NCBI RefSeq assembly: GCF_002216855.1
Contig: NZ_CP022355.1
Span: forward strand, 124,001-188,000
Length of the DNA stretch: 64,000 bases
Reading direction: 5' to 3'
From: Paraphotobacterium marinum
GTDB taxonomy: Bacteria > Pseudomonadota > Gammaproteobacteria > Enterobacterales > Vibrionaceae
Shown one piece after another: positions 4,571 to 44,561 of this stretch. The first letter of the stretch is position 1. The number at the start of each line of letters is the position of its first letter. The notes under the pieces were generated by a model. That model was given only the letters and a program-made list of their open reading frames with translations, did no database searches and had not been told where the DNA came from. Both the position numbers and the translations under genes were made by a program.

Positions 4571-5155
4571 ATGTCTTTTAGTTTACCAGATCTACCTTAT
4601 CAAAAAAATGCGCTAGCGCCTCACATCTCTGAAGAAACAATTAATTATCATTATGGGAAGCATCACAAGACTTACGTTGATAAGTTGAATGCTGCACTGG
4701 AGCAAAATGCGGAATTTTCTGGAAAGTCCCTAGAAGAAATCGTTAAAAATTCTTCAGGCCCAATTTTCAATAATGCAGCCCAAGTTTGGAACCATACTTT
4801 TTACTGGCATTGTTTGAGCCCAAATGGAGGCGGTAAACCAACAGGAAAAATTCAAGAACTTATCGAAAAAAACTTTGGATCCTTTGAAGCGTTTTCTGAG
4901 AAATTTACAAATAATGCCATCAATAATTTTGGTTCTGGATGGACATGGCTTGTTCAGAAAGGAGAAGATGAACTAGAAATTATTAATACTTCAAATGCAG
5001 AAACTCCTTTAACTAATGAAGATGTAAATGTTTTATTGACTGTTGATGTTTGGGAACATGCTTATTATGTTGATTACAGAAATGCTCGACCGAATTATTT
5101 AAGTGCTTTTTGGAATCTTATAAATTGGGATTTCGTAAACCAAAACCTTAAATAA
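4571..5155 (+). CDS. sodB: superoxide dismutase [Fe]
   Basis: Cytoplasmic Fe-superoxide dismutase of 194 aa. Metal ligands can be seen: His in LAPHISEETI, His in WNHTFYWHCL, and Asp and His in DVWEHAYYVDYRNARP. The segment NFGSGWTWLV and the Gln-containing stretch before it are typical of the Fe form. A strong ribosome-binding site (ACGGAGAATACTA) precedes the ATG. An AT-rich Fur-box-like sequence lies at 4520-4531. A perfect 17-bp inverted repeat follows the stop. Confidence 0.97.
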   Translation: MSFSLPDLPYQKNALAPHISEETINYHYGKHHKTYVDKLNAALEQNAEFSGKSLEEIVKNSSGPIFNNAAQVWNHTFYWHCLSPNGGGKPTGKIQELIEKNFGSFEAFSEKFTNNAINNFGSGWTWLVQKGEDELEIINTSNAETPLTNEDVNVLLTVDVWEHAYYVDYRNARPNYLSAFWNLINWDFVNQNLK

Positions 5156-5302: not shown

Positions 5303-6886
5303 ATGATCTTTAGAGCTTTTAATCTAACTTTAATTATATTCACGCTTTTTCCTTTTTTAGCTTTTTCTAATGACATAAAAGTATACCCAATAACAACATA
5401 TGATGTTAATACTGTTAATGTACCAGATATTACTAGTGACTCTGGAAAGCTTGAAGCTGTAAAAACAGCAGACTTATCCTTCGGTGTAGATGAGAAAATT
5501 AAGGAAATTTACTTTAAAGATGGAGATGAAGTTAAAAAAGGTGATCTATTAGCTAAATTAAATGATCAAAAAGCTTTAGCAAATTTAAATAGTTCTCAAA
5601 GTGCTTACGATACACAAAAAAGTTTATATATAAAAAAAGTTAAAACCAATAAAGCAGTACCCGGATCAATTTCTCAAACAGAATTACAAACTCAAAAAAA
5701 TGATTTAGAGTTAGCTAAAGCAAACTTAGAGTCTGCTAAAGCAGAACTAAGTAATTATTATATAATCGCACCATTTGATGGTGTTTTGACTAATTTCACT
5801 CAATCAGTCGGAAGTCATATTTCAGCTAATATAACTCTTGTTAACATCGTTCAACTTGACCCGATAAGAGTCAGATATCATATTTCACAAGATTTAGTGG
5901 GTAAAGCAAGTAAAAATCAAAAAGTTGAAGTAAAAGTAACCGCTTTTCCTAATGATACATTCATTGGTCAAGTATCATATGTATCTCCACAAGTTGATGA
6001 GTCAGGTAGAGTTAAAGAACTAGCCATCATAAATAACCCTGATAAAAAATTAGCACCGGGTATGTTTGCTCAAATAACACAAACACTCGGTGAAAACTCT
6101 CCTCAAATAGTAATACCTCAACTATCTGTCGTTGCTGAGAACCAAGAAACTTATGTGTGGATAGTCAACAACAACCAAACTGTCCAAAAACGTGATGTTA
6201 CTTTAGGTGAAAATTTAGATAGTGGTTTAGTTGTTATAACTAAAGGACTTAAAAAAAATGAAATTATTGTTAATACAGGAATGCAACGCCTAAATGAAAA
6301 GGCTAAAGTTAAAATACTTAAAAAATTTAATGTAGACAATTTTGTTGCAACAAAACAAAATACCCAGAATACCCAGAATACCCAGAATACCCAGAATATC
6401 CAGAATACCCAGAATACCCAGAATACCCAGAATACCCAGAATACCCAGAATACCCAGAATACCCAGAATACCCAGAATACCCAGAATACCCAGAATACCC
6501 AGAATACCCAGAATACCCAGAGTACTCAGAATACTCAGAATAACGAGAATACTCAGAATAACGAGAATACTCAGAATACTCAGAATACTCAGAATACTCA
6601 GAATACTCAGAATACTCAGAATAACGAGAATACTCAGAATACTCAGAATACTCAGAATACTCAGAATACTCAGAATACTCAGAATACTCAGAATACTCAG
6701 AATACTCAGAATACTCAGAATACTCAGAATACTCAGAATACTCAGAATACTCAGAATACTCAGAATACTCAGAATACTCAGAATACTCAGAATACTCAGA
6801 ATAACGAGAATAACGAGAATAACGAGAATACTCAGAATAACGAGAATACTCAGAGTAAACAAAATAATAACAATTTAGGCGAATAA
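5303..6886 (+). CDS. RND efflux periplasmic adaptor with (NTQ)n repeat tail
   Basis: Periplasmic adaptor (membrane fusion protein, HlyD/AcrA type) that links the inner-membrane RND pump encoded next to it to an outer-membrane channel. From the ATG at 5303 (527 aa) the protein begins with a signal peptide (hydrophobic [14 protein letters not shown], no lipobox Cys); the longer TTG start at 5240 would bury this signal. The two lipoyl-domain halves are visible ([20 protein letters not shown] and [19 protein letters not shown]), separated by a short helical hairpin, then the beta-barrel and the membrane-proximal domain ([10 protein letters not shown] to NEKAKVKIL). After residue 352 the family fold is over. 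The remaining 175 residues are 55 repeats of a three-residue unit, mostly Asn-Thr-Gln, plus a short end. Such a tail is not part of normal adaptors. No outer-membrane channel gene is nearby. Confidence 0.88.
6359..6853 (+). repeat. 9-bp minisatellite, 55 units, inside the RND adaptor gene
   Basis: 495 bp consisting of 55 in-frame 9-bp units. Units 1-18 (6359-6520) are AATACCCAG (unit 5 reads ATC for ACC). From unit 19 (6521) on they are AATACTCAG, with seven AATAACGAG units (Asn-Asn-Glu) and one AGTACTCAG. The change from ACC to ACT is synonymous and marks two separately expanded blocks. A multiple of three keeps the frame whatever the copy number. Confidence 0.97.
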
Positions 6887-6982
6887 AATATTTACTTATA
6901 TAATATAATCTAGTTTATTTGTAACCTATGCCTAAAGTATGTTTCCTGAGAAATTAATATTAATTAGAAATTAGAGAGCTGT

Positions 6983-9900
6983 ATGAAGTTACCTGAAATT
7001 TGTATAAAACACCCTGTATTTGCAACAGTACTAAGTTTATTAATACTACTAGTTGGTGTGTTTTCATATAACAAGCTAGAAACAAATCTCTATCCATCAT
7101 ACAATACTAAATCAGCAACTGTTTCAGCTAGTATTTCTGGAGCAAGTGCAAAATACTTATCTGACAATGTAGCGGTGCCTCTTATTAATGCAGCCAAATC
7201 TCTACCAGATATAAAGAATTTAGTATCTGATTGCCAACAAGGTTCTTGTAAACTAACAATTAATTTTAAAGATTCTGTTGATTATGTTAGCGTCATAAAT
7301 AAGCTTAGATCCAACATTGATGCTCAAATGGATAACATGCCTTCAACGTTGATTGACAAGCCTACTGTATCAGATGATACGGGAAGTTCAGGTAGTCAGC
7401 CAGATTATTACATTCAAATTAATTATGATCCACAAAAATATAAACCATCTCAAGTTAAAGACTATCTTAATAATAATATAAGAAATGAGCTTTTAAGAAT
7501 AGATGGTGTTGGGGCCCTATGGATTCAAGGAGCAGACGATAACAATGCTAGAGTTTGGCTTAACCCCAATAAAATGTCTGATTTAAATGTTACCCCCGGA
7601 GATGTCACTTTAGCATTGCAAACTGCTACTACGGATGTCAATGCAGGAAAAATATATGGTAAAGATAGATCTTATGCTATTGTCCCAGAAAATACAGTCG
7701 ATAACATTAATGCCATAAAAAACTTAACTATAAAAATTGATGATAATAAAAATCCTATTAGAATTAACGATGTTGCTGATGTAGCCTTAGCCCCTTCTTC
7801 AAATATCCCACAAATAATGAGAACCAACGGGAAAAGAACTCTGTTAATGCAAATTCTTCATAGAGATTCAGCTAACCCAATCAAAGTAGGACATGATATT
7901 GACAAATTTGTAAATGTCACATTAAAAAAACAACTTCCTGACGGTATAAGTGCTCAGTTAATATATAATCAAGGAACATATATAAATAAAATTATAAATA
8001 AGTCCTATGAAACTTTAATTGTTGCCATTATTTTAGTTGCCGCAATTATATATATATTTATGGGCTCATTGCGAATTTCTATTATACCAATAATAACTAT
8101 ACCCGTTTGTATCATTGGAACTTTTGCATTTATGGAACTAATGGGGTTCTCCATAAATATTCTATCCTTGCTAGCGATTATATTAGCTATTGGACTTGTA
8201 GTTGATGATGCAATTGTAGTAGTTGAGAACTGTTTTAGATATAAAGAAAGAGGACTAAGTGCTTATGAATCAGCAATAAAAGGTTCAAACGAAATAATTT
8301 TACCAATTGTTTCAATGACACTAACTCTAGCTATAGTTTTCATTCCAATTGCAATTACAGAAGGTATTAGTGCCGCTTTATTTAAACAATTCGCTTTTAC
8401 TCTGGCATTTTCTGTAATTATATCTGGCTTTATTGCACTCACTTTGTCGCCAATGATGTGTTCAAAACTTCTTACAGTTAACAGCCAATCTAATTGGTAC
8501 AAAAAGTTTAATGTTCAGTTTGAAAATTTAACCAAACAATATGTTGCTTTATTAAAAAAATGTATTGATAAGTTCAAAATATCATTCACCGGAATGATTG
8601 TAATATTCATATTAGGAGTAATTGTTTATCATTATATGCCAAAACAACTTCTTCCTACTGAGGATCTTGGCGTAATTTATTCAAGTGCAATCACACCTCC
8701 ATCAGGAGCTGGTCGAAACTATAATTTAAAATACAGCCCTCAATTAGAAAATTTAATCAAAAAAATAAAAACATTGAAACTAACATGCTTTTTTTAAAAG
8801 ATGGAAATGATCCAATTACGCAAACATTTCTAAAACCATGGGGTACACGCAAAACTAATGCAGATAAAATTGTAAGTGAGCTTAATAATTCTGCAAATAA
8901 TCTAGCAGCGTATGATGCGAGCTTTAAAGTACAAAACATGTCTGGTTTATCTTATGAAACAGGACTTAAGCTTGAAATAACTACGATATCTAGGAACCTA
9001 GAACATTTGAGAGATGCTTCAGAAAAAATAGTTGATGAGTTAAAAAAATTTCCTGGCTTAACTAATGTTAAAAGTTCATCAACAGCAGATCAACTAGAAT
9101 ATAAGCTTGCAATTAACCATGACAAACTTTCATTATCTGGCGTTACTTATGATGAGTTTTCATCAGCTATTAATACTTTTTTAGGTTCCACCAAGGCCGG
9201 GTTTATGAAAGATAAAAACAATAACCAATATAACATCAAAGTGCAAATTGATAAAAATAATCTCGATAATATAGATGTGCTTAATAAGATTTATGTTAAC
9301 GCTTATGGAAATCCAATTCCTGTATCTCAGTTTGTCAGTTTAACACAAAATACCGAAAGTAAACATCAATTTAACTTTAATGGATTGGATGCTACTCAAA
9401 TAACCGCGGATATTGATGCTAACTACAGTCCATCTCAAATCAAAAGATATATCGAAGAAAATATTCCAAGATATTTGAATAAAGATGAGACATTTGAATT
9501 TAACGGTGCAATTAAACAACTTGATGAATCTCAGCAATCTACAGTTATTGTTTTTGTTCTAGCAATCATTTTAATTTATCTAATTCTATCAGCACAATTT
9601 GAAAATTTTATTGACCCTTTAATTATACTATTCACGGTACCATTAACACTTGTAAGCGGCATCATAGCTCTATGGATAGGTGGTTTTACATTAAATGTAT
9701 ATTCTAATATAGGGCTTTTAACTTTAGTTGGTTTGATTACAAAACATGGTATTTTGTTAGTTCAATTTGCTAATTCAGAACAAAAAAAAGGAAAAACAGC
9801 AAAAGAAGCTGCAATAAATAGCGGTACACAAAGATTAAGACCAATTATAATGACATCTATAACAATGATTCTCGGAGCTATTCCACTTTCGTTATCATCA

Positions 9901-10092
9901 GGACCAGGTTCATTAGGTCAAATAAATATAGGTGTTGTTTTAGTATTTGGATTGTTTATTGGAACTTTTTTTTCTCTCTTTATAGTTCCAACAACATACT
10001 TAGCTTTAGATAAGATAAAAAAAATTGATGTTTTAATTGATATATTTAAAAATAAAATTGTATGTAAAATAAAATATTATAAAATTAAATAA
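6983..10092 (+). CDS. RND efflux pump, HAE1 type (frame interrupted)
   Basis: Inner-membrane proton/drug antiporter of the resistance-nodulation-division family, paired with the adaptor upstream. The first frame (6983-8797) has TM1 (FATVLSLLILLVGVFS), the porter domain, TM2-TM6 and the proton-relay helix LAIGLVVDDAIVVVENCFR. The second (to 10092) has the second porter half and TM8-TM12 with GLITKHGILLVQFANSEQKK. The frames join at the A-run 8767-8771: one extra A gives KKIKNIETNMLFLKDGNDP without a gap and a protein of about 1036 aa, the normal RND length. It is therefore one gene with a single-base lesion, either a consensus error or a true frameshift. Substrate unknown. Confidence 0.9.
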
Positions 10093-10111
10093 ATAGTTAT
10101 TGGAGATTAAG

Positions 10112-10336
10112 ATGCCGCAAAAGTCAAAATATCAAACTAATACGGTAGAAAAAATTATGGATGATATTTTATCTGTTTTAGAAAAACATAATTCACCAAC
10201 GGATCTTTCATTAATGGTTCTAGGTAACATTATTACCTCATTACTTGATGAATACCCTTATGCACAAAAAGAAGCATTAACCAAATCATTTTCCAAGGCA
10301 CTTTATCAATCCATACAAGAAAAGAATAATGAATAA
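10112..10336 (+). CDS. yejL: YejL family protein (UPF0352)
   Basis: A small protein of unknown function, 74 aa, always found upstream of yejM in gammaproteobacteria. The conserved core VLEKHNSPTDLSLMVLGNI is clear. The ATG at 10112 is chosen over an upstream in-frame start at 10100 because TGGAGA lies 5 bp before it and MPQ is the family N-terminus. Its stop overlaps the start of yejM by 8 bp, which implies translational coupling. Confidence 0.9.
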   Translation: MPQKSKYQTNTVEKIMDDILSVLEKHNSPTDLSLMVLGNIITSLLDEYPYAQKEALTKSFSKALYQSIQEKNNE

Positions 10337-12046
10337 AAACATATCACATTCAAATCAAATTTCTTTCCTAATTAATTGGGGTCACAGATATACAGCTTTT
10401 AATATAATATATTCCCTTTTAATTGCATTACTTTATTTTTATGCCAATCCATTACCTAACACTAGTATTGGAATAATTTATTTCTTTGTTTCTTGGCTGG
10501 GATATTTTAGTTTTTTTTGTTTTTTATTTTACATAATTTTTGTTTTCCCATTTACATTCGTAATAAAGTATTCGAGAGTTTTCAGAATTTATACTATTTT
10601 TATTTCATCTTTAGCTCTTACCTTTCAATTTGTAGACGTTAATTACTTTAACCTTTACAAAGAACACTTCTCTTTATTTACAATGTTTCAGGAACCCAAT
10701 AATACTATAAGTATTCATTATCTTCTTATCTTTCCAATTCTAATAATTATCAATACGTTAACATCTCAATGGTTATGGAATAAAACTAAAATAAAAACAA
10801 AAAAAATAGAAAACTAACCTTTTCTATTTTCATGTTTTTATTATCTTGCTTTTTAATAAGTAATATTATTTTTGCCTGGGCTGATGCAACGTTAGAAAAA
10901 TCAGTAACAATGCAAAGAAATAGTTTTCCATTAGCAGCACCTCTTACAGCAAAAGATCTATTAATTAAATCAGGTTTTTTAAAAGAAAATCAATATAAAC
11001 TTTCCAAACTATATGAAAAACACGTTGAGAAAGTATCCAAAATATCAAATTTCAAATACCCAAAAAACAACATAACTTATTCACCGAAGGGTAACAATTT
11101 AAATATTCTTTTATTAGATATAAGAGGCCTTAACAATAAAGATTTAGCTGATATACATCAATACCCTTACCTAAGCCTATTTTCTAAAGAAAACATGTTT
11201 TTCAAAAACACTTATGTTGCTTCAAACAATTTACAAAAATCAATCTTTAGTTTATTTTATGGTTTAACACCAAATTACTATAGTGAAATTGATAACTCAA
11301 AAATACAGTCTGTGTTATTTGATACATTAAAAAAATTTAATTACAAAATAAACTTCTTTCTTTCAAGCCCTAGTAAAGCAGATGATTATTATAGAATTAT
11401 TTTAAATAATAAAAATATAAAGTCATTTCATGTAAAAACAGACTCAGAAAATCCATCTACATATACTGATGTTATTAAGTGGTTAGACAGTAACGATAGT
11501 TCATCTTCACCATGGTTTACTTACATTTCATTTGAATTTAAAAGTGATATTGATTCAAAATTTCAACAAATACTTAATAGACTAGATTTACAAAAAACAA
11601 TTGTAATAGTTACCAATTCTGATGTGCCATTTGTAAATGATAGTACCAATATTGATAATTTAAAAACACCATTGACAATTCATTGGCCAGGTATTCATGA
11701 TACAAAGTTTACTTTCAGAGATTCAAATTTATATAGTATTACGCCTACTATTCTCTCAAAATTATTCGAGATAACAAATCCACTAAGTTCATTTTCATCT
11801 GGATGCGATTTATTCGATAGTTGCACAAATAATTATCCAATTTTCACGGCTAGTACAAGTAATATATATCTAATCTTTAAAGATAAATTTATTATGTTGG
11901 ATGAAAAGGCTAATTATTATGCATTTGATAAGAACTCATATCTAAACGTTCAAGAAACTGAAAATCCTGACTTTGATCTTCTTGATGTTTCTTTCGATAA
12001 ATATAATAGTTTTTTTAAAAAGATTAATAATCAAAATGACAAATAA
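10329..12046 (+). CDS. yejM: inner membrane protein YejM/PbgA (frame interrupted)
   Basis: In E. coli YejM (PbgA, LapC) senses lipopolysaccharide at the inner membrane and controls LpxC turnover through LapB; it has five membrane helices and a periplasmic sulfatase-like domain. Here the first frame (10329-10817) encodes four hydrophobic helices; the second begins in the fifth (SIFMFLLSCFLISNIIFAW) and continues through the sulfatase-like fold (NILLLDIRGLNNKDL, TYVASNNLQKSIFSLFYGLTPNYY). Adding one A to the A8 run 10799-10806 joins them into about 572 aa, close to the E. coli 586. The periplasmic part is divergent. Probably one intact gene with a homopolymer miscount. Confidence 0.85.
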
Positions 12047-12058
12047 GATGAAATTTAC

Positions 12059-13890
12059 ATGAAAATATTTACAATTATCAATAATGTTTTTAGATTATTC
12101 TGGAATACATTAAATATTACAAGGCAAATAGTTTTAAATATAATATTTATAATATTTATTTTTAGCATTGTATACCTTTTATATGTTAATAAACATAGTA
12201 AAAGCTCTCAACAAATTATTGAACCTCGCCCTTTGTTACTTAATCTAAATGGGCCAATCGTAGAGCAGCAAGAAAAACAATCTATTTTCAATCATTTCTT
12301 AAGAAGAATAAGCAGTAATAATTATTCCAATGTAAATTTATTTACCTTAACTAAAGTTATCAAAGTAGCTTCAAAGGACAAAAATATTAATGGCTTAATC
12401 TTAAATCTTAAAAATCTTCCTGAAACATCTATAACTCAATTATCATACATTGGTGAGGCACTTAAAGATTTCAAAAAATCTGGAAAACCAATCTACGCTA
12501 TTGGAGATTATTACAATCAAAGCCAATATTATCTTGCATCATATGCAAGTAAAATTTTCCTTTCGGAAGATGGTGCTATTTTATTAAAAGGTTATTCTAT
12601 TAATAATCTTTACTTTAAAAATTTACTTGAAAAATTAAAAATTGACGTTCATGTTTTTCGTGTTGGCAAATATAAATCTGCTATTGAACCCTTTACCAGA
12701 GAAAGTATGTCCAATGAAGCAAAAATAGAAAACAAACAAATTGTTGATCAATTATGGGTAAGTTATTTAAAAGTTATATCTCAAAACAGAAATATAAATT
12801 TATCGCCAAAAGATTTTGATATTGATAACCTTTTATCGAAATTAAAAAATAATGATGGCGATCTCTCAAGATTGTTTTTAAAAGAAAAACTTGTTGATCA
12901 ACTTGTAACTATTCCTGAGTTAAAATCAATTTTAATAAACAAATTTGGTAAAAGCGATGATAAATATAAACATGTAACTTACGAAAACTACCGAAATGAA
13001 GTTTATCAAAATTATATCCAAACTATGGTAACCCCAACATAGCAGTCGTCGTGGCTGAGGGAGAAATTGTTGATAATGATAACATCCCAAATACAATTAA
13101 TGCTAAGGATCTCATTTCTAGGTTAGAAACAATAAAGACTATACCTTCAATAAAATCGGTTGTTATTAGAGTCAATAGCCCTGGAGGTAGCGCATTTGCA
13201 TCAGCTAATATAAGAGATGAAATTCTTCAACTTAAAGCAGCAGGTAAAAAAGTAATTATTTCAATGTCATCTTATGCAGCTTCGGGAGGGTATTGGATTT
13301 CAATGAGCGCAGATAAAATTATAGCAAATGCAAATACACTAACAGGTTCTATTGGCATTTTTGCAATATATCCAACCTTTAAGAATTCTTTAAAAGAAAT
13401 CGGAATTGATTCTGATGGATATTACACAACACCAATTTCTAAAATGAGTCAAACTCAAAACCTAAGTCCAAAAATGAGCGAATTTATACAAATAAACGTT
13501 GACCATGGTTATAAAAAGTTTATTCAACTAGTATCAAAATCTAGAAAAATTCCATTAAACCAAGTTCAGAAAATTGCTCAAGGTAGAGTCTGGACTGGCG
13601 AGGATGCACTTAAAGTTGGACTGGTTGATCAATTAGGTGATTTTGATGAAGCTATACAGGAGGCTAAAGCTTTATCAAAATTAAAAACAGCAAAAATACT
13701 TTGGATGCAAAAAAGCGATAATACAAACATATCCAACTCCTTGGGTATGTTTGTAATGGATAGCATAGGTGTTTCTACCAAAATTAAAAATTTAGTGAAT
13801 ACCAATCTAATACTACAACCATTATTAAGTCTCCAAGATCCCAAAGGACAATATGCACTGTGTATTCAATGTGATGGGTTATATCAGTAA
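12059..13890 (+). CDS. sppA: signal peptide peptidase SppA, 67K type (frame interrupted)
   Basis: Inner-membrane serine protease with a Ser-Lys dyad that degrades signal peptides left after secretion. An N-terminal membrane anchor (IVLNIIFIIFIFSIVYLLYV) is followed by the first repeat with the catalytic Lys region (HVFRVGKYKSAIEPFTRESM) and the second with VNSPGGSAFASANI and the catalytic Ser region SMSSYAASGGYWISMSADKI. The frames 12059-13042 and 13051-13890 join at the C4 run 13032-13035: one more C reads through to NIAVVVAEGEI and gives about 610 aa (E. coli 618). This is the only lesion of the set that is not in an A/T run. Its stop overlaps the ansA start. Confidence 0.9.
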
Positions 13891-14911
13891 TGAAAAAAAA
13901 TAAGAAAAAAATATATATATGTTACACAGGCGGAACTATTGGGATGGTAAGATCTCCCAATGGCTACGTCCCTGCGAAGAACTACATGCATGAACAATTA
14001 TTAAAAATACCAGAACTTCATCGTGATGAAATGCCATCTTTTACTTTAAATGAATATGAGCCTTTAATTGATTCTTCAAATATGAACCCAAATGATTGGG
14101 TTAGAATTGCCAATGATATCTATAAAAACTACGAAATGTATGATGGTTTTGTGATACTTCACGGAACGGATACTATGGCATATACATCTTCAGCATTATC
14201 ATTTATTTTTGAAAATCTAAACAAACCAATTATCGTTACGGGTTCTCAAATCCCTTTATGTGAAATTAGATCTGATGCCCATAATAACCTCTTGACGTCA
14301 TTATTCTTAGCTGCAAATTATCCAGTAAATGAAGTAAGTTTATTTTTTAATAATAAATTATTAAGGGGAAATCGAGCAAAAAAATACATGCTGATGGTTT
14401 TGATGCTTTCGAGTCCCCAAACTTACCACCCCTAATTCATGCTGGCATCAATATTAAAGTAAATAAAAGCCTGATTGATTTACCCAAGAAAAGAAATGTT
14501 CCCGTTAAAATAAACACCTTGTATACACAACCAATTGGAGTAGTAACATTTTATCCAGGAATTTCTACTCAAGTGATCAAAAATACAATTTTACAACCTG
14601 TCAAAGCACTAATCATTCAAACATTTGGTGTAGGCAATGCACCTCAGGAGCCTTCTTTTATTCAGTTACTTAAAGAAGCAAATGAAAACAAAATTTTAAT
14701 CTTAAATATTACTCAATGCTTATCAGGGAAAGTAAATATGGATGGGTATGCTACAGGAAAAGAGCTTCAAAATGTTGGGGTAACTAGTGGTTATGATATA
14801 ACTCTAGAAGCTGCATTAACAAAATTACATTTAATATTAAGCCTCCCCATCAGTTTTGATGAACGAAAGATGCTACTTGCTCAAAACTTAAAAGGTGAAA
14901 TAACTTACTAA
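13890..14911 (+). CDS. ansA: L-asparaginase I, cytoplasmic (frame interrupted)
   Basis: Hydrolyses L-asparagine to aspartate and ammonia in the cytoplasm. The two catalytic Thr motifs are present: YTGGTIGMV (N-terminus) and LHGTDTMAYTSSALSF, then RSDAHNNLLTSL. The frame stops at 14435; one more A in the A7 run 14378-14384 reads NRAKKIHADGFDAF and continues to 14911 (QTFGVGNAPQ, GKVNMDGYATGKEL), giving 340 aa (E. coli 338). ATG 13890 overlaps the sppA stop by one base, as in a coupled operon. The sppA-ansA order is conserved in enteric bacteria. Confidence 0.92.
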
Positions 14912-15174
14912 ATTTTTTTTGTTTGAATAATATCTTCGAACTCAGCTTTGAACTCTGCCCTACTTTTGTGTTTTATTTCTCCATTTTCTTGAATGGAGAG
15001 ATGTTCATTTTGTTTGCCCTTTTTTGCTTGGTAAAGCATAATTAATTGCATCGAAGATGAAACTTGCGCTTCCGTTAGCTTTATTCCGTTTGACCACTTG
15101 CCCGTTTCGACAGCTTCTAAAAGAAGTTCATATACCTCTGCTGTTAATTCTGTATTGATTTTTGAAAAGTTCAT
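14908..15174 (-). CDS. yeaC: YeaC family protein (DUF1315)
   Basis: A small protein of 88 aa and unknown function. It matches E. coli YeaC in TAEVYELLLEAVETGKWSNG and in the LIMLYQAKK segment. The ATG at 15174 is preferred over 15180 because GGGT lies 6 bp upstream of it. It is divergent from gapA, as in E. coli, and converges with ansA with a 4-bp overlap. Confidence 0.82.
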   Translation of the reverse strand: MNFSKINTELTAEVYELLLEAVETGKWSNGIKLTEAQVSSSMQLIMLYQAKKGKQNEHLSIQENGEIKHKSRAEFKAEFEDIIQTKKI

Positions 15175-15313
15175 AAACATACCCGGTTGTAAAAAAATTG
15201 TAATTATAACTTAGATTAAATGAACAAACATAGAATATATATATAATCATAACATTTTTCAATTTTTACTTGAAGTTATTACCAATAAAAGGTAATTTAC
15301 GATTGATTATTAA

Positions 15314-16336
<1,023 letters not shown>

Positions 16337-16362
16337 TCATCCCTTTATTCTTATAATATTAC

Positions 16363-16395
16363 AAAAGCAAAAATCAAATTGATTTTTGCTTTTTT
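16363..16395 (+). terminator. rho-independent terminator of gapA
   Basis: Inverted repeat 16363-16377 / 16379-16393 (AAAAGCAAAAATCAA and its complement), followed by a T-run to 16395. It lies 27 bp after the gapA stop. The remaining 220 bp to prkA hold no gene; I see only AT-rich leader and a ribosome-binding site (CAGGAG) at 16612. Confidence 0.85.
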
Positions 16396-16621
16396 CACTT
16401 CTCAATATTTACACTCAAATCAAGTCATATGTGATTAACGTCTTAAATATACAATTATCCCTCTTGTCTTATAGTTTATAGTATACGTATATTAACAATG
16501 AAGGCTTATTAACATAATTTTACTTATGTGCTTTGGAAACGAATTGTTCATATATTTGCTAAAATTAATATTATAAAGGGATTTTTCGTCATTCATGAGC
16601 AAATAATCTACAGGAGTTAGT

Positions 16622-18555
16622 ATGAGTATTTTTGAGCACTACCAAAAAAGGTTTGAACTTTCTAAGCAGGAAGAAATATCTATACAAGAATTTTTAGAAA
16701 TTTGTAAAAATGACAAATCTGCCTACGTAAATGCTGCTGAGCGATTGTTAATGGCAATAGGAGAGCCTGAATTAATAGATACAGCCAAAGATCCTAGGCT
16801 AAGTCGTTTATTTTCGAATAGAATTATTCAGCAATATGATACATTCAAAGATTTTTATGGGATGGAAGAAGCCATAGAGCAAATAGTATCATACCTGAAG
16901 CATGCTGCTCAGGGATTAGAGGAAAGAAAACAAATCTTATATTTATTGGGCCCAGTAGGTGGAGGAAAGTCATCACTTGCAGAAAAGCTAAAATCTTTAA
17001 TGGAAAAAAAACCTATATATATTTTATCAGCAAATGGAAAAAGAAGTCCTGTTAATGACCATCCTTTTTGTCTATTCAATGCTGATGAAGACAGTAAAAT
17101 TTTATCTGATGAATATAATATCCCTAAAAGGTATCTTAATAACATTATGTCTCCTTGGGCCTCTAAAAGATTACATGAATTTGGTGGAGATATAAGTAAA
17201 TTTAAGGTTATAAAAGTAACTCCTTCTATTCTGGATCAAGTTGGGGTAGCCAAAACTGAACCTGGAGATGAAAATAATCAAGATATTTCATCTCTAGTGG
17301 GAAAAGTTGATATCAGACAACTTGAACATTATGCGCAAGATGATCCGGATGCCTATAGTTACTCAGGAGCTTTATGTAAAGGTAACCAGGGATTAATGGA
17401 GTTTGTCGAAATGTTCAAAGCTCCTATAAAAGTTCTCCATCCATTACTGACTGCAACGCAAGAAGGTAATTATAATGGGACAGAAGGTTTATCAGCCCTT
17501 CCATTTGATGGTATTATTTTAGCTCACTCAAATGAATCAGAGTGGAAAACATTTAGAAATAATAAAAATAATGAGGCATTTTTAGATAGAGTCTATATAG
17601 TTAAAGTTCCTTATTGTTTGAGAGTTTCAGAAGAAGTTAAAATTTATGAAAAACTATTAAAAAATAGTAAACTAGAACATGCACCCTGCTCCCCAAGTAC
17701 ATTAGATGTTTTATCTCAATTTAGTATTCTATCTCGCTTGAAAGAACCTGAAAACTCTAGCATATATTCTAAAATGAGAGTATATGATGGTGAGACATTG
17801 AAAGACACCGACCCTAAAGCTAAATCCTACCAAGAATATAAAGATTATGCTGGTGTAGATGAAGGTATGAGTGGACTTTCAACTAGATTTGCTTTTAAAA
17901 TTTTATCCAGAGTTTTCAATTTTGATCACTCAGAAGTGGCTGCAAATCCTGTTCATTTGTTTTATGTTTTAGAACAACAAATAGAGCGAGAACAATTTCC
18001 TAAAGAGCAATCTGAAAAATATTTGGAGTTTTTGAAGGGATACTTAATACCTAAATATGTTGAGTTCATTGGAAAAGAGATTCAAACAGCTTATCTAGAG
18101 TCTTATTCTGAATATGGTCAAAATATTTTGATAGATATGTGATTTACGCTGATTTTTGGATACAAGATCAGGAATACAGAGATCCTGAAACAGGTCAATT
18201 GTTCGATAGATCTGCTTTAAATAATGAATTAGAAAAAATAGAAAAGCCTGCAGGAATAAGTAATCCTAAAGACTTTAGAAATGAAATAGTAAATTTTGTA
18301 TTACGTGCGCGTGCAAGTAATTCAGGTAAAAATCCAAATTGGACTAGCTATGAAAAATTAAGAACTGTAATTGAGAAAAAAATGTTTTCTAATACCGAGG
18401 AGTTATTACCAGTAATATCTTTTAATGCTAAAACTTCAACAGATGAACAAAAGAAACATGATGATTTTGTTGATAGAATGATGGAAAAGGGATATACACG
18501 AAAACAAGTAAGATTGTTGTCGGAATGGTATCTTCGAGTTAGAAAATCTTCTTAA
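16622..18555 (+). CDS. yeaG: PrkA family serine protein kinase YeaG (frame interrupted)
   Basis: AAA-type protein kinase of the PrkA family, in E. coli part of the stress- and nitrogen-starvation-induced yeaGH operon. The Walker A motif LLGPVGGGKSSLAEKL (about residue 108) is clear, and the C-terminal PrkA domain is encoded after a break: frame one ends at 18142 (NILIDM), and the rest begins near 18139 (IYADFWIQDQEYRDPETG). One additional T in the T4 run 18126-18129 reads GQNIFDRYVIYADFW, and the whole protein is 644 aa, exactly the E. coli length. Conserved end KGYTRKQVRLLSEWYLRVRK. First gene of the yeaG-yeaH-ycgB operon; 12 bp to yeaH. Confidence 0.93.
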
Positions 18556-43454: not shown

Positions 43455-44561
43455 TCAATCTATTTTTTTTAGCAGGTCCAATGCTTCCTTTTTATAGATG
43501 TCATTATTAGATTTAATGACATCTGATAAAAGTTCAACAGCAGCTCCTTTATCTTTTAACTCAATGTACATTTTAGCCAAATCTAACAAGTGTAAAATAT
43601 CTCCATCATCGTCAACATCACATGCTTGTATGCTTGGTAAAATATCTGATAAAGAGTTTTTTACTTTTTTAAAGTTTTCATTTTTCTTATTATCGCTAAG
43701 AATTACGTCTTCTGAAGAAACTGCTTGGGTAAAATCGGATTGAAAGTCATCAATTTGTATTACTTTTTCATTTTTTATGTTATGAAGTTCTGTTTTTACA
43801 TTAGCATCTGATAAATTCGATTTATTAAAAATATCAATATTGTGTTCCTTTTGAACATCATACTTTGATCTATCTTTATTTATATCTGAGATATTATTGT
43901 TTTTATTAAAAGGTGCTTCAGGATAGTGTTCATCTTCCTTTTTTCCTGAAAAAGAAGGAAATGTTTCATCATTTTGTTCACTTATCTCACCAACATCAAA
44001 AGATATTTTCTGATTTTCAGTATTTTGATCTTTATTGTTTTTATTAAAAGATGCTTCAGGATAATGTTTATCTTTCCCTTTTCTAGAAAAAGAAGGAAAT
44101 GTTTCATCATTTTGTTCACTTATATCACCAACATCAAAAGATATTTTCTGATTTTCAGTATTTTGATCATTAGGAACAATGCTTCTATGCTTCTGATTTA
44201 TATCAAATAAATTTTGATTAGTAAAAACTTCTGGCACAATTAGCTCTTCTCGATTATCAAAATGAATATTGACGTTATTTTTTAATCTTTCATTATTAAC
44301 TTGCTTAACGCCTTCGGTCACGAATGATGGCTCAAAATTTTGTTGCATACTAGGAATAACATGTTGTTCGTTCGTTTTTTTTTCCTTTCTGTTTTGTTTA
44401 TTATTTTCAGCTGAGCGCGTTGGAAGAAGCAATAATAATATAATCAAAATAATGGAAATAACCAAAATCCCTAATAAAGTAATTGATATAAAATCATGGT
44501 TCCCTTCAAATAATGATTTAATCCAGTTTAAAAATTGTATAAAAAATTCCAAAATTTTCAC
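43455..44561 (-). CDS. FimV-like membrane protein (short form)
   Basis: 368 aa. One membrane helix near the N-terminus (about residues 24-46, ITLLGILVISIILIILLLLL), a long, polar, low-complexity middle section, and a C-terminal segment of about 50 residues (DGDILHLLDLAKMYIELKD, KEALDLLKKID) that matches the FimV C-terminal/TPR-like domain. The large periplasmic LysM part of typical FimV (polar-hub protein, often over 600 aa) is absent. The middle contains a 46-residue direct repeat. The location between asd and truA is that of fimV in other gammaproteobacteria and supports the call. Function in this reduced form is unknown. Confidence 0.72.
   Translation of the reverse strand: MKILEFFIQFLNWIKSLFEGNHDFISITLLGILVISIILIILLLLLPTRSAENNKQNRKEKKTNEQHVIPSMQQNFEPSFVTEGVKQVNNERLKNNVNIHFDNREELIVPEVFTNQNLFDINQKHRSIVPNDQNTENQKISFDVGDISEQNDETFPSFSRKGKDKHYPEASFNKNNKDQNTENQKISFDVGEISEQNDETFPSFSGKKEDEHYPEAPFNKNNNISDINKDRSKYDVQKEHNIDIFNKSNLSDANVKTELHNIKNEKVIQIDDFQSDFTQAVSSEDVILSDNKKNENFKKVKNSLSDILPSIQACDVDDDGDILHLLDLAKMYIELKDKGAAVELLSDVIKSNNDIYKKEALDLLKKID
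43893..44168 (-). repeat. two-copy 138-bp direct repeat within the FimV-like gene
   Basis: Copies 44168-44031 and 44030-43893. Both encode 46 residues beginning DQNTENQKISFDVG and differ at a few positions (for example D/E after FDVG, and RKGKDKHYPEAS versus GKKEDEHYPEAP). In-frame duplication. Confidence 0.92.

Follow-up and report, generated by a model that had tools for sequence, protein, structure and literature searches.

Why does the gene of an RND periplasmic adaptor in Paraphotobacterium marinum end in 55 copies of a nine-base unit, and does the pump notice the resulting tail? We examined the gene within a 64-kb stretch of DNA, called the window here, and compared it with relatives from other Vibrionaceae. 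The features of the gene were as follows.

5303 to 6886, plus strand: RND periplasmic adaptor gene, 527 amino acids, ATG at 5303 and TAA at 6884-6886 (TIGR01730, HlyD_D23, sequence)
5303 to 6340, plus strand: conserved region comprising a start like a signal peptide and the adaptor fold (34-44% identical to relatives, which occur in 62 other Vibrionaceae genomes)
6359 to 6853, plus strand: array of 55 nonamers encoding an (NTQ/NNE) tail of 165 residues (TRF, unit reading)
6359 to 6520, plus strand: first block, 18 units, 17 AATACCCAG (NTQ) and one AATATCCAG (NIQ) (unit reading)
6521 to 6853, plus strand: second block, 37 units, AATACTCAG, seven AATAACGAG (NNE) and one AGTACTCAG (STQ, the first unit) (unit reading)
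6854 to 6883, plus strand: tail end, with sequence that recurs at the 5' edge of the array (sequence)

The array of nonamers

TRF was run on the window, and its top score of 705 fell on positions 6359-6854, with a period of 9, 55.1 copies, 92% match and 0% indels. Reading the array unit by unit gave exactly 55 in-frame nonamers at 6359-6853, near-identical and arranged head to tail as in a tandem repeat. There were 46 NTQ units (29 AATACTCAG and 17 AATACCCAG), and the other units were seven NNE, one NIQ and one STQ. A previous sequence-only reading had described 495 bp of 55 in-frame units, mostly NTQ with seven NNE, and both methods confirmed it. Its inventory held for NTQ and NNE; the NIQ and STQ units and the order in two blocks had not been mentioned. 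It had also stated that the unit does not disturb the frame, which was correct since 9 bp are three codons.

The codon types of NTQ were split by block. The ACC type lay early, and the ACT type and the NNE units lay later. Of the 46 NTQ units, 17 used ACC for Thr, a codon with a 10% share elsewhere. All Gln codons of the array were CAG, a codon that made up 15% of Gln codons in the other genes of the window. The uniform CAG codons and the arrangement of the variants in blocks are what one would expect if a founder unit had been amplified. Nothing indicated strong selection on the peptide, because NIQ, STQ and NNE changed residues and only the ACC/ACT difference was silent. AAACAAAAT was present at both edges of the array, where the tail-end peptide recurred on the 5' side, and it is a plausible remnant of an earlier tail. 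No homopolymer above 3 was found within the array and no indel, so its frame is credible, more so than the exact count of units.

The background of repeats was taken from 464 kb of the P. marinum genome, consisting of the window and 20 sampled stretches. In this sample, 45 TRF rows scored at least 50. Apart from the nonamers, a single array had at least 50 copies; its unit was 105 bp long and it lay within a giant open frame. The nonamer array was thus far beyond chance. The 105-bp repeat (L259, 13187-18646, chromosome II) had 52 copies; the minus-strand open frame around it spans at least 2291 codons and probably encodes a giant repeat protein. Other repeats were also recorded. In L244, a perfect 8-bp repeat, ATATTGAG, was present in 9.5 copies at 8013-8088 (chromosome I 408013-408088), between genes resembling ribosomal protein S9 and a Rieske iron-sulfur subunit. 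The window contained three tandem tRNA-Asn genes at 1356-1605 (87-bp unit, 100% identity). It also contained a 138-bp in-frame duplication at 43893-44172 (two copies, 92% match) in a short gene on the minus strand, 43455-44561, the end of which matched the FimV C-terminal model.

The adaptor fold and its tail

The first 346 codons from the ATG at 5303 encoded the RND adaptor, and the array shared their frame. The profile TIGR01730 matched residues 32-338 (E 3.6e-62; 210.2 bits against a cut-off of 94.9) and HlyD_D23 gave a second domain match (E 7.1e-22), which bore out the earlier view that a normal adaptor fold precedes the repeat. The ORF lister had placed the start at TTG 5240. The ATG at 5303 is likelier, since it gives 527 amino acids with a hydrophobic N-terminus resembling a signal peptide. 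The calculated mass of this protein, signal peptide included, is 59 kDa. A single-sequence structure model of the adaptor was of low confidence overall, with a mean pLDDT of 33, and was confident only in the coiled-coil hairpin.

The tail after the fold was 188 residues long. Three other adaptors of P. marinum ended 4-13 residues past the fold, and the other adaptors examined ended 4-32 residues past the matched part. The last 177 residues had 65% Asn + Gln, a GRAVY of -2.6 and a net charge of -6. The tail had been called prion-like; the Asn/Gln-rich composition stood, and the prion label was a reading of that composition.

The tail in Vibrionaceae relatives

The adaptor fold alone was searched against 297 Vibrionaceae genomes at E <= 1e-55. 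Matches were found in 63 genomes including P. marinum itself, that is, in 62 of the 296 others, and the relatives were 34-44% identical. Longer stretches were read for eight relatives, and in each the pump gene was directly downstream of the adaptor. Three of them (L192, L193 and L194) had the common order grxD, sodB, adaptor, pump, and the same upstream neighbour was present in P. marinum.

4571 to 5155, plus strand: superoxide dismutase gene on the upstream side, belonging to the common gene order (also next to the adaptor in L192, L193 and L194)

In 67 aligned relatives, the region after the fold was a length-variable, low-complexity tail of 9-141 residues with a median of 57. All 67 had a tail, and it was longer than 25 residues in 61. 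Order-promoting residues made up 14% of the tails versus 32% of the cores. The tails diverged rapidly: at core identities of 0.8-0.9, the tail identity averaged 0.37. Pooled pN/pS was 0.31 for tails and 0.04 for cores (148 pairs, which are non-independent). A tail pN/pS below one, together with the retention of a tail by nearly all relatives, meant that some constraint exists. From these sequence comparisons, the family tail appears weakly constrained rather than free.

The tails of the relatives were not Asn/Gln-rich; the abundant residues there were Glu, Thr, Ser, Lys, Ala and Pro. This meant that the Asn/Gln richness in P. marinum was a result of the unit that happened to expand and not a property of the family. 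The 65% Asn + Gln over 177 residues and the strongly polar GRAVY would fit a tail that aggregates or behaves like a prion and has a role in the cell, but the composition of the relatives' tails argues against it, and we regard such a role as hardly credible.

These results also bore on three expectations of the sequence-only reading. No adaptor family with such a tail had been known to it; this did not hold, as relatives of this very gene have length-variable low-complexity tails, several with in-frame repeats. Binding of the tail to cell wall or pump had been suggested, and the fast divergence of the tail sequence argues against one specific binding site. A search for the tail in related genomes had been proposed. 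It returned tails at the same place in 67 relatives, but these were shorter and their composition was not Asn/Gln-rich.

Tandem repeats in the tails of relatives

Several tails carried tandem repeats of their own. A 6-bp (Ser-Thr) repeat was present in 7.3 copies in L166, and a 6-bp (Pro-Gln) repeat in 5.2, 6.2 and 10.2 copies in L229, L231 and L230, respectively. A 15-bp repeat of 2-4 copies was found in the tails of several relatives, and L241, a relative from another family of the order, had Asp/Ser/Pro-rich tail repeats. Of 68 genes, 24 had tail repeats at a TRF score of at least 30 (13.8 kb of tail sequence) and 14 had core repeats (69.8 kb of core sequence), counts that are not phylogenetically independent. 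Since the repeat units differed among relatives, we argue from these sequences that the tail of this adaptor family is generally permissive. The adaptors of L229, L230 and L231 differed mainly in the number of (Pro-Gln) copies (5, 10 and 6), which is a direct case of copy-number change between species.

NTQ repeats were also looked for outside the gene. The DNA pattern of three NTQ units was found in one of the 297 Vibrionaceae genomes; in other genomes, the stretches that matched numbered at least 120. The longest run among the matches examined had 14 units and lay in a short open frame in which no gene could be recognised. These repeats were rejected as homologues, as they look like convergent short runs. 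Separately, a 9-bp repeat of the AACACTCAA type was observed in Pseudoalteromonas L050 and L076, with 14 and at least 11 units. Its flanks were near-identical in the two species, and the short open frames were not gene-like.

Overlap of the tail with the pump gene

The tails of many relatives terminated in NEAS, NEAT or NEAA. The DNA at this end read aATGaagct..cctga, and the start codon of the pump lay inside these codons. NEA[S/T/A] was considered as a binding motif and rejected on this ground; the location of the pump ATG meant that the motif was a by-product of the overlap. The pump start and the adaptor stop overlapped in 63 of 67 relatives, by 14 bases in 55 and by 1 base in eight. Translational coupling may keep the tail open as far as the pump start in these relatives. 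In P. marinum the overlap was absent, and a gap was found instead.

6887 to 6982, plus strand: 96-bp gap from adaptor stop to pump start (63 of 67 relatives overlap here instead)
6983 to 10092, plus strand: partner RND permease, split by a net one-base offset near 8758-8797 of the sequence as deposited (ACR_tran in both halves)

The main rival explanation was that the tail serves the adaptor subfamily as a flexible tether or spacer, whose presence, rough length and polar composition are selected, with repeats as a quick means of lengthening. It takes this place because all relatives keep some tail and because the tail pN/pS is below one. The presence of a tail in 67 of 67 relatives, longer than 25 residues in 61, was consistent with a tether, as was the appearance of different repeats at the same place in different lineages. 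However, tail length spanned 9-141 residues and the sequence was poorly conserved. The overlap with the pump start alone could hold the frame open in relatives, and it accounted for the sole conserved end motif. A tether is thus possible but unlikely.

The permease frame and the assembly

The RND permease adjoined the adaptor, and both of its halves matched ACR_tran (E 1.2e-138 and 4.1e-91). Aligned to the pump of a relative, the split was seen as frames 1 and 3. Within 9.4 kb (8758-18140), five genes were split in total, namely the RND permease, DUF3413/sulfatase, signal-peptide peptidase S49, asparaginase and prkA, and their second halves were offset in the same direction. Some of the frame breaks were away from homopolymers. 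The net one-base offset in the same direction in all of them was better fitted by a consensus fault than by five independent pseudogenes. We suspect a fault in the local consensus, such as might occur at a contig end, as the possible cause; real pseudogenes are the alternative.

These data were relevant to a decaying locus, in which the pump is in fact non-functional and loss of selection on the operon allowed the tail to grow. The permease frame was split while six other RND pumps of the genome were full length, and the overlap of adaptor stop and pump start was missing. However, the adaptor fold was intact and open over 527 codons, and four other genes up to 18.2 kb shared the net one-base offset. 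Decay of the locus was considered rather improbable.

They were also relevant to the assembly. The genome of P. marinum NSCS20N07D has 2,593,992 bases, in contigs of 1,426,504 and 1,161,949 and a small third. Sequencing used PacBio RSII alone, from a 10-kb library, and HGAP 3.0 (PMC5649133). This single technology and the start of the suspect stretch about 2 kb downstream would allow the array, or its length, to be an assembly artefact. However, 495 bp is far shorter than the 10-kb library fragments, the variants were ordered and the frame was kept free of indels and long homopolymers, although the exact unit number may be off. We judged an artefact to be very unlikely.

Proposed origin and role of the tail

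We consider it likely that the array arose by clonal slippage amplification in a pre-existing tail that was weakly constrained and probably disordered, and that the pump is little affected. One 9-bp unit would have been expanded clonally, presumably by replication slippage or unequal recombination. The site of expansion would be the C-terminal tail already present in the adaptor subfamily, which follows the last folded domain, varies in length among relatives and could tolerate in-frame growth. From its composition, the tail is very probably disordered. Since the unit has three codons, its expansion would leave the frame intact. Long stretches of identical units and the block-wise variants would reflect a founder unit amplified in successive rounds. 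If the protein is exported, the 165 extra residues would form an unfolded polar extension in the periplasm, and pump function would change little. The array looks like an extreme case of ordinary growth in a tolerant protein end. Against slippage in a tolerant tail stand the tail pN/pS below one and the retention of the tail by nearly all relatives. In addition, disorder was judged from composition, and the pairs and repeat counts were not phylogenetically independent. On/off (phase-variable) switching by slippage was also considered and rejected, as the 9-bp unit lies inside the reading frame.

Strain-to-strain length variation of the array is plausible, the comparison covering a single genome of the genus. 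A further proposal was that the disordered tail of the subfamily is reset repeatedly by different in-frame repeats as a tunable appendage, with P. marinum as the extreme and with pump behaviour of strains varying with copy number. We regard this proposal as doubtful. If P. marinum isolates do differ in copy number, the array would offer a ready means of typing this pelagic genus.

An apparently isolated oddity becomes a family pattern, in which the same adaptor end gained different tandem repeats in different lineages. This pattern is more interesting than the P. marinum array alone. The repeat-bearing tails form a natural comparison series for asking if tail length, where the tail is disordered, matters to a periplasmic pump. 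The NEA case is of interest as an apparently conserved C-terminal motif created by overlap with the next gene. A search of a limited body of literature with a limited set of terms found no description of low-complexity or disordered RND adaptor tails or of a family pattern of growth by repeats.

Comparison with known systems

The nearest solved relative by sequence was the RND adaptor chain of PDB 6vej (E 1.2e-34). The P. marinum adaptor shared the fold, the gene order with an RND permease and the signal-peptide-like start with TIGR01730 adaptors. Unlike the short ends of the other adaptors examined, its 188-residue tail was mostly repeat. The closest precedent for the array is Bucl8, an efflux channel of Burkholderia pseudomallei and B. 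mallei, in which 6-38 Gly-Ala-Ser units with about 100 alleles vary between isolates (PMC7682875). Both are efflux components with an in-frame tripeptide tandem repeat in the C-terminal part. However, Bucl8 is an outer-membrane channel and not an adaptor, and a conserved end of 72 residues follows its repeat. Its Gly-Ala-Ser units form a collagen-like triple helix outside the cell, whereas NTQ cannot form collagen because it has no Gly; Gly at every third position was absent from the NTQ, NNE, NIQ and STQ units alike. In Legionella pneumophila, 7 of 26 intragenic tandem repeats differ in copy number between strains (PMC2639597). These also lie inside genes, but the genes and units are other ones. 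Tandem repeats that stay in frame are a familiar feature of bacterial genes (PMC2639597), and Bucl8 is an efflux component on record with such a repeat (PMC7682875); here the component and the unit are different, and the tails of the family have gained repeats more than once.
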